NCBI GenBank assembly: GCA_020853255.1
Contig: JADYZI010000034.1
Location: forward strand, 1-12,418
Direction of reading: 5' to 3'
Length of the DNA stretch: 12,418 nt
From: Acidobacteriota bacterium
GTDB taxonomy: Bacteria; Acidobacteriota; Blastocatellia; Pyrinomonadales; Pyrinomonadaceae
How positions within the stretch are numbered: the first letter of the stretch is position 1; the number at the start of each line of letters is the position of its first letter. The notes beneath the pieces are model-generated. The model had not been told where the DNA came from, made no database searches, and saw only the letters and a list, made by a program, of their open reading frames with translations. Made by a program: the position numbers and the translations under genes. Below, piece by piece: positions 1-4,351 of the stretch.

Positions 1-49
1 AGTCCAAGGGGGGATGTTAAGAAATTCGCTAAATTCCTTCTGGCATTTT

Positions 50-77
50 TTGACAAACATAGTAAATTAGCTAAAAT
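50..77 (+). promoter_or_regulatory. Sigma70-type promoter of the PqqD-like gene
   Basis: A perfect -35 TTGACA (50-55) is followed after 16 bp by TAAAAT (72-77), a five-of-six match to the -10 consensus. The surrounding sequence is much more AT-rich than the coding DNA. Transcription would start near 84, inside the inverted repeat at 79-101, giving a leader of about 35 nt before the ATG at 120. Seen by eye only; no transcript data. Confidence 0.7.
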
Positions 78-78
78 G

Positions 79-101
79 ACCTAACTCTAATAGAGTTAGG
101 T
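79..101. promoter_or_regulatory. Perfect 10-bp inverted repeat at the start site (operator or leader hairpin)
   Basis: ACCTAACTCT (79-88) and AGAGTTAGGT (92-101) are perfect reverse complements separated by AAT. The repeat begins just after the -10 box and spans the predicted transcription start. It could be a repressor operator, or if transcribed a tight 5' hairpin that stabilises the mRNA. No T-run follows, so it is not a terminator. The repeat itself is certain; its role is inference. Confidence 0.7.
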
Positions 102-119
102 ACTTGTTTGGAGGAGAAG

Positions 120-608
120 ATGAACAAACCGCAGAATCCGGTCGCCCGGAAAACGGGCCTGGTCGTTCAAGACGTGCCTGAAGAAGTGTTGGTGTACGAT
201 ACAGATACCAACAAGGCCCACTGCCTTAATAAGACTGCCGCAATGATATGGCGCTCATGTGACGGGACGAGGTCCGTTGCTGAGATCGCAAAACATGTGG
301 GTTCGTTGGCGGGTGAAGCCGTCACAGATGATTTTGTTTGGCTTGCGATAGATCAGCTTAACGAAAGCGATCTGCTTGAAAAGCAAGTTGCCGCGGACTT
401 TAAAGGCCTTTCGCGCCGTGATGTGATCAAGCGCATCGGCCTCGGGTCAATGATCGCTCTGCCTGTTATCGCATCGCTTGTCGCTCCGCCTACCGCACGC
501 GCGGCTGCGTCCTGCAATTGCAATAACAACGCGGAATGCGGCGTGGGCACCCCTAACGTTGGTTGCCCGGCACCTACGTGCAACGGAAGCGGCCGCTGCG
601 AGGCGTAA
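120..608 (+). CDS. PqqD-like domain protein with internal Tat-type signal and six-cysteine C-terminal tail
   Basis: The product is 162 aa. Residues about 12-92 resemble the PqqD/RRE family of small winged-helix domains, which bind leader peptides and present them to modifying enzymes (LNKTAAMIW and the following DGTRSVAEIA helix are typical). Residues 98-104 (SRRDVIK) are a twin-arginine-like motif, followed by a hydrophobic stretch (about 106-122) and an ARA|AA signal-peptidase-like site near 128. The remaining 34 residues carry six cysteines (132, 134, 140, 149, 154, 160) in a Gly/Asn/Pro-rich tail. The ATG at 120 is chosen over the in-frame TTG at 108 because GGAGG (110-114) lies just upstream. 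A cytoplasmic PqqD domain with an exported, disulfide-bonded or modified tail is inferred. It may be a fused leader-binding/precursor protein. No PQQ biosynthesis genes are adjacent. Confidence 0.75.
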   Translation: MNKPQNPVARKTGLVVQDVPEEVLVYDTDTNKAHCLNKTAAMIWRSCDGTRSVAEIAKHVGSLAGEAVTDDFVWLAIDQLNESDLLEKQVAADFKGLSRRDVIKRIGLGSMIALPVIASLVAPPTARAAASCNCNNNAECGVGTPNVGCPAPTCNGSGRCEA

Positions 609-669: not shown

Positions 670-683
670 ATTGTCAAGACAAT
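670..683. promoter_or_regulatory. Inverted repeat overlapping the nucleotidyltransferase start codon
   Basis: ATTGTC (670-675) and GACAAT (678-683) are perfect 6-bp reverse complements with an AA spacer, and the right arm includes the first two bases of the ATG at 682. It could be a small operator or a structure hiding the start. Short repeats of this size also arise by chance, so function is doubtful. Confidence 0.3.
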
Positions 684-1560
684 GTCCGTTCGCGTGGCTG
701 AAGCTGATGGAGATGACCGCTGGCACCGGCTATATGCGCGCAAGCTTGAGGTTGAGGCGATACGGGCATTTGAGTTGTTCCGTCGGAACGAGATCGAACC
801 GGTACTGATCAAGGGCTGGGCGGCGGCGAGAAACTATCCCGCCGATGCCCCGCGTTTCTACTCCGACATCGATCTCGCCGTTTCAGCCGGAGATTTCGAA
901 AAGGCACGGGCACTGCTGGCTTCAAAGGAAGCAATCAAAATTGGCATCGACCTGCACAGGGAGTTAAGGCATCTTGACACCCGGCCATGGACATCGATAT
1001 TCGAAAATTCGCAACTGATCGATCTTGACGGCTGTGCTATCCGTATTCCATCGCCCGAAGACCATCTGCGGATATTGGCCGTCCACTGGCTGAACGATGG
1101 TGGTGAAAGCAAAGAACGGCTGTGGGATATTTACTATTCCGTCGCGGCCCATCAGCACTCGTTCGATTGGAACGCCTGCCTTCATGGGCTCTCAAGCAAC
1201 CGGCGGAGCTGGATGATCGCCGCGGTGGGACTCGCGAATAAATATCTCGGGCTGCCGATCGACGGCCTTCCGTTTGCGGACGAGGCCCGCGATCTGCCGA
1301 ATTGGCTGACCGCGACCGTTGAACGCGAGTGGCGATCAGGTGTTTTGCATCGCTCGCTTCACACGTGCCTAAATGATCCGGCAGAATTTCTGCGTCAACT
1401 TCGAAAACGCATCCCGCCAAATCCGATCCAGGCAACGATCGAATGCGAAGGCGACATGCGAGCGGGTTCTCGGCTGCCGTATCAGGTCAATTGCATGATA
1501 AAAAGGTCCTTGCCCTCGATCCGCGGCGTTTTCCAAACTCTCAGATCGAAAGCCCGATGA
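682..1560 (+). CDS. Nucleotidyltransferase family protein (NTP_transf_5-like)
   Basis: The product is 292 aa from the ATG at 682. It has hallmarks of the NTP_transf_5 (PF14907) group of the polymerase-beta nucleotidyltransferase fold: VLIKG (41-45), an Arg (R58) just before the metal-binding SDIDL motif (61-65, D62 and D64), HREL (92-95), and a helical C-terminal part beginning around PEDHLRILAVHW (125-136). Substrate and product are unknown. Relatives are often found next to PqqD-like and HPr-kinase-related genes in putative peptide-modification clusters (from memory of the family). The open frame extends upstream to 478, but that part overlaps the PqqD-like gene and the terminator and does not look like the family. 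The start lacks a clear Shine-Dalgarno sequence. The 3' end overlaps tsaB by four bases (ATGA), implying translational coupling. Confidence 0.75.
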   Translation: MSVRVAEADGDDRWHRLYARKLEVEAIRAFELFRRNEIEPVLIKGWAAARNYPADAPRFYSDIDLAVSAGDFEKARALLASKEAIKIGIDLHRELRHLDTRPWTSIFENSQLIDLDGCAIRIPSPEDHLRILAVHWLNDGGESKERLWDIYYSVAAHQHSFDWNACLHGLSSNRRSWMIAAVGLANKYLGLPIDGLPFADEARDLPNWLTATVEREWRSGVLHRSLHTCLNDPAEFLRQLRKRIPPNPIQATIECEGDMRAGSRLPYQVNCMIKRSLPSIRGVFQTLRSKAR

Positions 1561-3158: not shown

Positions 3159-4268
3159 TTACGATTTGGCGGCACAGTCGCCGACTGCGTATATTTCAAG
3201 AGAGCCGGTTGTCGTCACGGCAAAGGCCCCAACACGAACAGGGACCGGCGATCCGCTGATAAGATCGCTGTCAACGGACGTGAAAACATCCGCTATCTTC
3301 CCATTCGCAAGGTCAAGAGCATAGCCGGAGTTCTCACCATTTATCAGAACAACAAAATAGCCCGCGAGGCTTAGGCCGCCATCCAATATCCGCCCAGGCA
3401 AACGCCGTTTCCAGATAACGCTTCCGTTATAGTCAGAGATCAGGTAAACGAAATTATCCAGAGACGTAACAAGAATTCCCTCATCCGTATTCACGATCGA
3501 AGAAACGGCCGCTCCGGTTTTGAACTTCCAACTCGCGCCGCCGCTCTCCAGTTCAACATGCTCGAGGTTGCCTCGCTCACCGCCGACAAGCAGATCATCC
3601 TTTTTTGAGAACGCAACCGCCCGCGGGATCATGCCAAGAGCAATCTTCGTTACAGATCCTTCGCTCCGGCCTGAAATGACGATCAGTTGCTTATTCCCAG
3701 TTCCAAAGGCGATACGGCCTGCCTTAAATACCGGCTTGGCAGTCACTATCCCATACGGACCGTTTCGCGACATAAGCTGGCCCGACTGTTCGAGTATCGT
3801 GACGAGGCCTTCGCGGCTGATAATGGCGATCCCAACAGTCGACCTGCCTAAATAGTATTTTTCTGAAAATGGTAGCTTAGCGGACCAAGACGTGACGCCC
3901 GTTTTCCCGGCGATAAGCCTGATCGTGGCCTCGTCGGCGGCCGGTTGACCGCTTCGAATCGGGTTGCTAACAACTACCGGCCCGTCGTCGAGAGCTAAAA
4001 TATCAGAGCCAAATTCACCGCCGAGTTCAAGCCGCCATTCGGGCGCTAGATCTCGGGATACATATGAGCTTAATACTCCGTTCGTCGAACCGACATAGAT
4101 ACTGTCGCGGTTTGCGGCGAGCATGCCACTTTGTGGAGACGAGAGCCGATGCGAGTAACATTTCCCTAAAACAGGCGAAGATGGCCTCACTTGTTGGCCA
4201 TCGACGCCTATGCCGATCATGCATAAAAGCAGGACAGTGAACCATATAACATTTCGCTTCGATCGCAT
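3159..4268 (-). CDS. Secreted PQQ-type (BamB-like) beta-propeller protein
   Basis: The product is 369 aa. A signal peptide is visible at residues 1-24 (positive RSKR, a hydrophobic core, likely cleavage after VDG), so the protein is exported. The mature part is all-beta, with repeated blades carrying the PQQ/WD-like G-x-x-x-W pattern (W128, W247, W286) and segments such as IYVGSTNGVL, LLVGGERGNL and VYLISDYNGSVIW, fitting a single seven- or eight-blade propeller. It has no dehydrogenase catalytic motifs and no clear lipobox, so it is more likely a scaffold or binding protein than an enzyme. Cys37 and Cys365 sit at the two ends of the mature chain and could lock the ring by a disulfide. The ATG at 4268 is chosen because it gives a proper signal peptide; an in-frame TTG upstream (4328) does not. 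Confidence 0.75.
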   Translation of the reverse strand: MRSKRNVIWFTVLLLCMIGIGVDGQQVRPSSPVLGKCYSHRLSSPQSGMLAANRDSIYVGSTNGVLSSYVSRDLAPEWRLELGGEFGSDILALDDGPVVVSNPIRSGQPAADEATIRLIAGKTGVTSWSAKLPFSEKYYLGRSTVGIAIISREGLVTILEQSGQLMSRNGPYGIVTAKPVFKAGRIAFGTGNKQLIVISGRSEGSVTKIALGMIPRAVAFSKKDDLLVGGERGNLEHVELESGGASWKFKTGAAVSSIVNTDEGILVTSLDNFVYLISDYNGSVIWKRRLPGRILDGGLSLAGYFVVLINGENSGYALDLANGKIADVFTSVDSDLISGSPVPVRVGAFAVTTTGSLEIYAVGDCAAKS

Positions 4269-4351
4269 TATTCCGCCCGCCCCATCGCCTGTTCGATAGA
4301 CCTCGGTCACCGTTGTTGACCGGCACAAAGGATAAATCTTATCACACGCGC

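Follow-up and report, generated by a model that had tools for sequence, protein, structure and literature searches.

The window, by which we mean the whole stretch of 12,418 nucleotides analysed here, opens inside a gene for an HprK-like kinase and runs on, along the same strand, through a gene in which a PqqD-type domain is fused to a signal-like segment and a cysteine-rich tail, and then through a nucleotidyltransferase gene. The features are these:

1-84, plus strand: 3' end of the HprK-like kinase gene (last 27 codons and stop), the window starting inside the gene; from translation and homology
79-101, no strand assigned: perfect 11-bp inverted repeat, an RNA hairpin between the kinase stop and the fusion gene, just 5' of the ribosome site
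110-116, plus strand: ribosome-binding site GGAGGAG, read by eye in the sequence
120-608, plus strand: fusion gene (PqqD/RRE domain, twin-arginine signal and six-cysteine tail; 162 aa), from ORF, homology and profile searches
126-392, plus strand: RRE (PqqD) domain, residues 3-91, from profile match and fold comparison
411-431, plus strand: twin-arginine motif SRRDVIK, residues 98-104, from translation and homologue conservation
435-485, plus strand: hydrophobic segment of the signal, residues 106-122, from sequence features
495-503, plus strand: putative signal-peptidase-like site A-R-A, residues 126-128, read by eye
504-605, plus strand: putative exported tail, residues 129-162, with six cysteines, from translation and the cysteine pattern of homologues
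510-512, plus strand: Ser131, an inferred candidate kinase target, third residue past A-x-A and immediately before the first cysteine
682-1560, plus strand: NTP_transf_5 nucleotidyltransferase, start codon uncertain (PF14907, E 1.5e-18, 67.7 vs 31.2 bits)

Residues 3-91 of the fusion correspond to PF05402 (PqqD)/RRE by sequence model, and their predicted structure, a winged helix of three strands and three helices, matches RRE folds; these bounds, which are approximate, correct the 12-92 suggested in an earlier note on this DNA. The hydrophobic stretch falls outside that fold and is accordingly not a segment of its buried core. Fold comparison was needed because a sequence-profile search of solved structures returned no RRE for the fusion profile and nothing for the transferase; a PADLOC search at E 1e-3 was likewise without a match for the fusion, for one kinase (L068) and for the nucleotidyltransferase of the window. 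The domain falls below the model for PqqD of PQQ biosynthesis (TIGR03859; 21.3 bits vs a cut-off of 46), and in the homologue alignment His34, Cys35 and Cys47 are among its residues that vary hardly or not at all. The hairpin ahead of the gene scores z -3.64 in a folding test, and a stem resembling it occurs also in one related locus (L032); as a general family element it was dropped, the mean z being 0.19 over 31 stretches with the window included. A promoter-like TTGACA was also dropped, lying as it does inside the kinase reading frame.

A homology search with the fusion protein gave 1486 homologues, with source names that include Pyrinomonadaceae and Chloracidobacterium, of which the best 120 were examined; a second search, with distant members, gave 1160, and the best 120 of these form a sister branch sharing the RRE and signal parts. 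Across both sets the arginine pair is present in 239 of 240 proteins (238 by pattern and P0150 read by eye), the exception being RH. When the best 120 of the 1486 are joined to 55 sequences from genome contigs, RR stands in the expected place in 174 of 175 proteins or ORFs, with the full twin-arginine motif in 169 of those 174 and six tail cysteines in 158. The six tail cysteine columns have entropies of 0.00-0.07 bits, whereas the remaining columns from residue 132 onward average 2.21. These values bear out the earlier proposal that a PqqD-like domain, a Tat-type signal and a six-cysteine tail are joined in one polypeptide. Counted from the first cysteine, the number of cysteines is even in all 240 listed homologues (six in 229, eight in 10, two in one), as expected for disulfides. 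A single odd count occurs among the 174 RR-bearing sequences; it may belong to L056, whose broken frame led to its exclusion from the pN/pS and cysteine-framework analyses but which was kept in the 174-sequence motif count.

In amino-acid sequence the tail has evolved faster than the two parts before it. In four pairs with dS under 0.8, which are not independent of one another, pooled pN was 0.139 for the tail, as against 0.027 for the RRE and 0.007 for the Tat part; pooled pS, also highest in the tail, was 0.599, 0.291 and 0.211 in the same order, so that pN/pS in these close pairs is about 0.23, 0.09 and 0.03, respectively. Homologues combining a conserved PqqD part with variable cysteine tails, which the earlier note had proposed to look for, are thus found, both by pN/pS and by column entropy, and a constant front joined to a variable tail is the pattern of modified or secreted peptides. 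In the sister branch the tail takes the form C..C..CC..C..C in 119 of the 120 proteins listed (best 120 of 1160) and in none of the 120 close homologues listed; that of L145, for instance, reads C-x6-C-x5-CC-x3-C-x4-C. In its cysteine pattern this resembles a knottin (inhibitor cystine knot), whereas the tail of the window has a C-x-C spacing and no CC. Tails thus switch cysteine framework behind a front that does not change. One distant member, L078, matches UPF0506 (PF11703) above cut-off and knottin-type families below threshold. The branch with knottin-type tails takes in L145, L146, L148, L149, L078 and P0121-P0240, and PF11703 also stands in the precomputed Pfam annotation of three of its proteins among the best 120 of 1160. 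In the still more distant loci L163 and L164, a kinase lies near PqqD/Tat-like proteins with tails that are Pro/Lys- or Ser/Thr-rich and without cysteine.

In all 120 close homologues listed (best 120 of 1486), an AxA-type site can be placed three residues ahead of the first cysteine, 17 of them reading AQS, and the residue before the first cysteine is Ser in 120 of 120; together these place a Ser at +3, as in the linear polyphosphorylated peptides considered below. At the same position the sister set (best 120 of 1160) has Thr in 74, Asn in 25 and Ser in 21 of 120. The residue equivalent to Ser131 is the best candidate modification site, though not a universal one, since 99 of the 120 sister proteins carry Thr or Asn there.

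Two enzymes recur beside this protein. The kinase of the window is known only from its last 27 codons, and the family traits given here come from relatives; the product of positions 1-84 matches the C-terminus of the kinase of locus L085 with 81% identity over 27 residues (E 3e-17, 64.7 bits), the best of 200 shuffles reaching 24.4 bits. H117, K138 and D155 are invariant in 30 aligned members, and lasso peptide kinases carry a His-Lys-Asp-Asp motif, according to a review (PMC9266682). The best NCBIfam model, HprK_rel_A (TIGR04352), was matched by four members at E 7e-14 to 5e-8, with scores (32.5-51.5 bits) below its cut-off of 200; two of three kinases were without a Pfam match, the third having a sub-threshold match to Hpr_kinase_C. 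In a profile search of solved structures HprK ranked first, weakly (E 0.05), with the His, the Walker Lys and the Asp aligned, and a predicted model of the kinase (pLDDT 93) resembles PEPCK and HprK with Foldseek TM-scores of 0.54 or less. In the nucleotidyltransferase, K44, G45, D62, D64 and D90 are invariant among 22 aligned sequences, KG and DxD positions among them.

The order that recurs in 55 loci from named assemblies is a WecA/MraY-like gene, the kinase, the fusion, NTP_transf_5, tsaB and rimI (several named by eye). The next gene upstream of the fusion is the kinase in 37 of 48 cases, and the next gene downstream is NTP_transf_5 in 36 of 48; 31 show both arrangements. The neighbour counts cover the 49 of 55 loci fetched in which a fusion ORF was called. 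The gene caller gave no such ORF in L031, L051, L075, L083, L084 and L085, although L031 contains the gene. Tandem copies of the fusion occur in five loci, and in L042 and L076 copies with different tails stand behind one kinase; paralogues without a recognised kinase alongside were seen in L074, L077, L079, L080 and L082. Among 20 stretches from other Acidobacteriota, picked by kinase or fusion matches, a strong trio of kinase, fusion and nucleotidyltransferase is present in five (L145, L146, L150, L152 and L161). The earlier note had looked toward radical-SAM genes as partners; none was noticed, by eye, among the recurrent neighbours of the loci, and the partners that do recur are the HprK-like kinase and the NTP_transf_5 nucleotidyltransferase. 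Farther downstream in the window lies a beta-propeller protein (PF13360, PQQ_2/BamB-like; 3159-4328, minus strand), whose cluster is found in 35 of these 55 loci.

The association extends to whole genomes. Strong matches to the fusion (E up to 3e-24) occur in 40 of 396 Acidobacteriota genomes, in 24 genera, and the kinase is found in all 40, by a strong match in 39 and in G009 by a partial match at a contig start; six genomes have the kinase only and 350 have neither (Fisher p 7e-49 over the 396 genomes, with shared ancestry ignored). The line between strong and weak in this test was drawn after the matches were seen. Kinase matches at E 1e-10 to 1e-19 were treated as weak, and the partial matches of G001 and G009 were counted only where stated; that of G001 was assumed to lie at a contig end. 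At loose limits (kinase 1e-10, fusion 1e-6) a kinase match accompanies 57 of 65 fusion-type genomes and is absent in 8. The nucleotidyltransferase (E 1e-20 or better) is present in 35 of the 40 strong-fusion genomes and in six others. In some genomes the fusion genes are dispersed, G242 having the fusion in five places and the kinase in one. A candidate joint loss of kinase and fusion in G036 was dropped, the nucleotidyltransferase there starting at contig base 29, which makes a contig break probable.

Comparison thus shows one polypeptide that combines an RRE fold, a segment resembling a twin-arginine signal and a tail with a disulfide pattern, and whose gene is linked to those for an HprK-like kinase and an NTP_transf_5 protein. 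The reading of these sequences to which we give slightly better than an even chance is that of a RiPP-like precursor with a recognition domain of its own, which is decorated by the kinase and nucleotidyltransferase, exported via Tat, and released. The RRE domain would remain cytoplasmic and present the substrate in cis by docking the kinase, perhaps together with the nucleotidyltransferase; the kinase would add one or more phosphates to a hydroxyl-bearing residue early in the tail, for which Ser131 (+3 after the AxA) is the likeliest choice, and the nucleotidyltransferase would attach a sugar or nucleotide to that phosphate. Tat would then take the internal twin-arginine signal and carry the tail across the membrane, signal peptidase would cut after the AxA, leaving RRE and signal in the cell, and the tail would form three disulfides and be released as a compact, decorated peptide. 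A self-presenting precursor of this kind, first suggested in the earlier note, gains comparative support from the RRE fold, the arginine pair, the variable tail, the flanking enzymes and the split arrangement in Sphingomonas described below; its Tat component is matched weakly by curated models.

The constancy of RRE and signal, set beside tails that vary and can be without cysteine, could also be explained if the RRE were a built-in export chaperone that shields the Tat signal until released by the kinase, which would phosphorylate the RRE or signal as a gate and leave the tail unmodified except for disulfides; the nearly invariant His34, Cys35 and Cys47 of the RRE would fit such a role. We regard this as rather unlikely: a mere gate needs no nucleotidyltransferase, and NTP_transf_5 lies immediately downstream in 36 of 48 loci, while the peptide core is described as a target of HprK-like kinases in both lasso and LPP systems, and of a nucleotidyltransferase in one case (PMC9266682, PMC13381572).

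The nature of the signal bears on a second alternative. The segment in the window follows the pattern S/T-R-R-x-hydrophobic-hydrophobic-K/R (as SRRDVIK) followed by a hydrophobic core and AxA, and a six-frame filter for Tat-like ORFs, applied to 800 kb of 49 loci, picked out 49 ORFs at family genes and three elsewhere. TatC is encoded in all 20 genomes tested, two of them without a fusion match. The retention of RR also speaks for Tat, as Sec would accept other pairs of basic residues. The window protein was not among matches to the curated Tat model TIGR01409 at E 1, where 8 of 30 members of set A4 and 4 of 15 of set A5 appeared (best E 0.016, with no pass reported); L145 scored 15.3 bits against a cut-off of 16.7. 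A folded domain of about 95 residues ahead of a Tat signal is unusual, and this internal position behind an RRE may weaken the scores of curated models. The weak match to curated models, and the single hydrophobic segment set between a cytoplasmic-type domain and a cysteine-rich tail, would also suit a membrane-anchored sensor, in which an uncleaved anchor holds the tail outside to sense metal or redox state and the RRE relays to the kinase. Such a sensor seems to us improbable, for an anchor would not need the RR found in 239 of 240 listed proteins, an AxA-type site is possible in every close homologue listed, and the tails are highly variable and switch cysteine framework.

The surroundings of the operon suggest where a released, decorated peptide might act. 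In the genus of the window the operon is preceded by a WecA/MraY-like gene (PF00953 above cut-off) and by genes read by eye as glycosyltransferases, wecB, capD and RmlD, and this polysaccharide-type cluster suggests a role in the envelope or in competition. That the tail is instead a structural or anchoring peptide joined to the polysaccharide of this cluster, the transferase acting on a sugar-phosphate, is the least probable of the alternatives, for although LPP clusters too are described in capsule loci (PMC13381572), the tsaB/ssb/accA/dnaE side is equally syntenic here, so that the proximity may be just inherited gene order.

Loci also occur in which counterparts of the fused parts are separate genes. 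On a plasmid of Sphingomonas parapaucimobilis the order is a 161-aa twin-arginine protein, with its RR pair after 35 residues, a 92-aa PqqD scoring above the TIGR04353 cut-off, a kinase above that of TIGR04352 (228 vs 200 bits) and a PF14907 transferase. On a plasmid of Vibrio alfacsensis, a twin-arginine protein has its motif, SRRRFIR, behind 33 residues; a PF14907 transferase is encoded there too, the kinase reaches 324 bits and so passes TIGR04352, and the 84-aa ORF in the place of PqqD matched no NCBIfam or Pfam model. Both loci with a kinase above the TIGR04352 cut-off, those of Sphingomonas and Vibrio, thus have an adjacent twin-arginine protein. As sequences from both loci lie inside our own profiles, which makes those assignments circular, their genes were tested against NCBIfam and Pfam instead. 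On sequence grounds, the split loci and the Acidobacteriota fusion together are a Rosetta-stone pattern. The internal position of the signal, which the earlier note found odd, is real, but in Sphingomonas and Vibrio too the RR follows an N-terminal extension, of 33-35 residues, and the odd order may be such an extension grown by fusion.

The sphingomonad twin-arginine protein (L165:5978-6463; P0246-P0365) is without a Pfam or NCBIfam match, lies beside HPr-rel-A genes and has 370 homologues. Among the best 120 of these 370, 112 carry [S/T/N/A]RR and the other eight GRR, ERR or PRR; the protein is possibly the substrate of the HPr-rel-A system. Curated Tat models matched none of five split twin-arginine proteins tested. 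A screen for a separate Tat protein in 12 kinase- or PqqD-bearing loci led to acceptance in three (L165, L167 and L178) and gave none in L169, L171, L177, L185 and L187; Tat-like matches in L170, L181, L183 and L186 look spurious. The candidate in L178 (6193-6402), a lead only, is a 69-aa Tat-like peptide with an ERR motif and two tail cysteines, beside a kinase and NTP_transf_5 in a locus where no PqqD was recognised; against TIGR01409 it scores 15.6 bits (cut-off 16.7). A Methylosinus kinase match was rejected as a split locus, no twin-arginine protein or PqqD being noticed alongside.

Several known systems share parts of this arrangement, and characterised relatives of its enzymes act on peptides brought to them by an RRE. 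Among the closest are the linear polyphosphorylated peptides (LPPs) of Bacillota, described in 2026 (PMC13381572), whose clusters, inside capsule loci, encode a discrete RRE, an HprK-like kinase and an NTP transferase. As reported there, the precursor is presented by LppB, the RRE, and cut by a SipW-like signal peptidase; the kinase, LppK, polyphosphorylates the Ser at position 3 (Ser3) of a core that begins AQSNWK and did not accept Thr. The likeness takes in the three core components; precursors with a conserved N-terminus and a variable C-terminus; a leader removed by a signal-peptidase relative there and a putative AxA site here; Ser at core +3, which is the kinase site in LPPs and would be a modified residue in the window by inference; and the placement of LPP clusters in capsule loci, the operon in the genus of the window adjoining a polysaccharide-type cluster. 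The differences are as plain, in that LPPs have a discrete RRE, which recognises a YxxP leader, whereas here RRE and precursor form one protein; LPPs are served by a SipW-like peptidase of their own and by an MsbA-like transporter, where a twin-arginine signal is found here; and the six-cysteine tail and the phylum Acidobacteriota set the present family apart. The LPP report calls these peptides restricted to Bacillota, and its main text is without the words Acidobacteri- or Tat.

The HPr-rel-A system (TIGR04352/TIGR04353), as drawn from the Sphingomonas locus, likewise places a kinase, a PqqD-type domain, PF14907 and a twin-arginine protein side by side; there, however, PqqD and twin-arginine protein are separate genes, and in Acidobacteriota they are one, while kinases and PqqD of the type in the window lie below the cut-offs (PqqD of the window, 16.7 vs 35 bits). 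A full-text search of the open-licence literature for the HPr-rel-A and HprK-related kinase names gave no paper. With its RRE fused and its scores below cut-off, the system of the window stands outside strict LPP or HPr-rel-A membership, yet by analogy it probably works like them.

Paeninodin and pseudomycoidin, as reviewed (PMC9266682), are lasso peptides whose HprK-like kinases, PadeK and PsmK, phosphorylate a peptide Ser, with a nucleotidyltransferase, PsmN, linked in pseudomycoidin to hexose addition; the target there is a C-terminal Ser, and no macrolactam cyclase or B2 protease was noticed, by eye, in the recurrent neighbour clusters beside the fusion. The DUF2063/DUF2282 pair also matches an RRE with a precursor bearing an export signal (PMC12710340), but the signal described is of Sec type and the RRE a separate protein. 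In listings from the open-licence PMC library, no description of the architecture of RRE, signal and cysteine tail was found.

Since RREs as a rule flag the enzymes, they serve in the discovery of RiPP pathways (PMC7470986); here the mark is on the putative substrate itself, and a single gene reveals recognition domain and peptide together. It is possible, though we rate it somewhat below an even chance, that these loci represent a new class of ribosomal peptide pathway, in which one self-presenting protein is both RRE and precursor and Tat stands in for a dedicated exporter. Its products would be disulfide-rich peptides, bacterial knottins among them, that carry phosphate or sugar-phosphate, and it would be widespread in Acidobacteriota and present on at least one Gemmatimonadota plasmid. 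The comparison provides a hypothesis for the targets of HprK-related kinase A and NTP_transf_5 in HPr-rel-A systems, whose missing substrate, if it is true, would be the twin-arginine protein encoded alongside, and it draws attention to knottin-like bacterial peptides as a large group, little explored so far, whose members can be cloned as three-gene units.

The Gemmatimonadota case is a megaplasmid of Gemmatirosa, which encodes a kinase (E 3e-55), a fused RRE-RR-Cys protein (E 3e-27) and a PF14907 transferase, with a MauE-type gene between. The product of that gene (L166:7348-8271; PF07291), which adjoins the fused gene, has a CxxC motif and is a possible disulfide-forming partner. A further relative of the fusion, with 42% identity, lies in a record named Betaproteobacteria (L083; JAQGMV010000056.1) together with an ORF that clusters with NTP_transf_5; this record is possibly misbinned.
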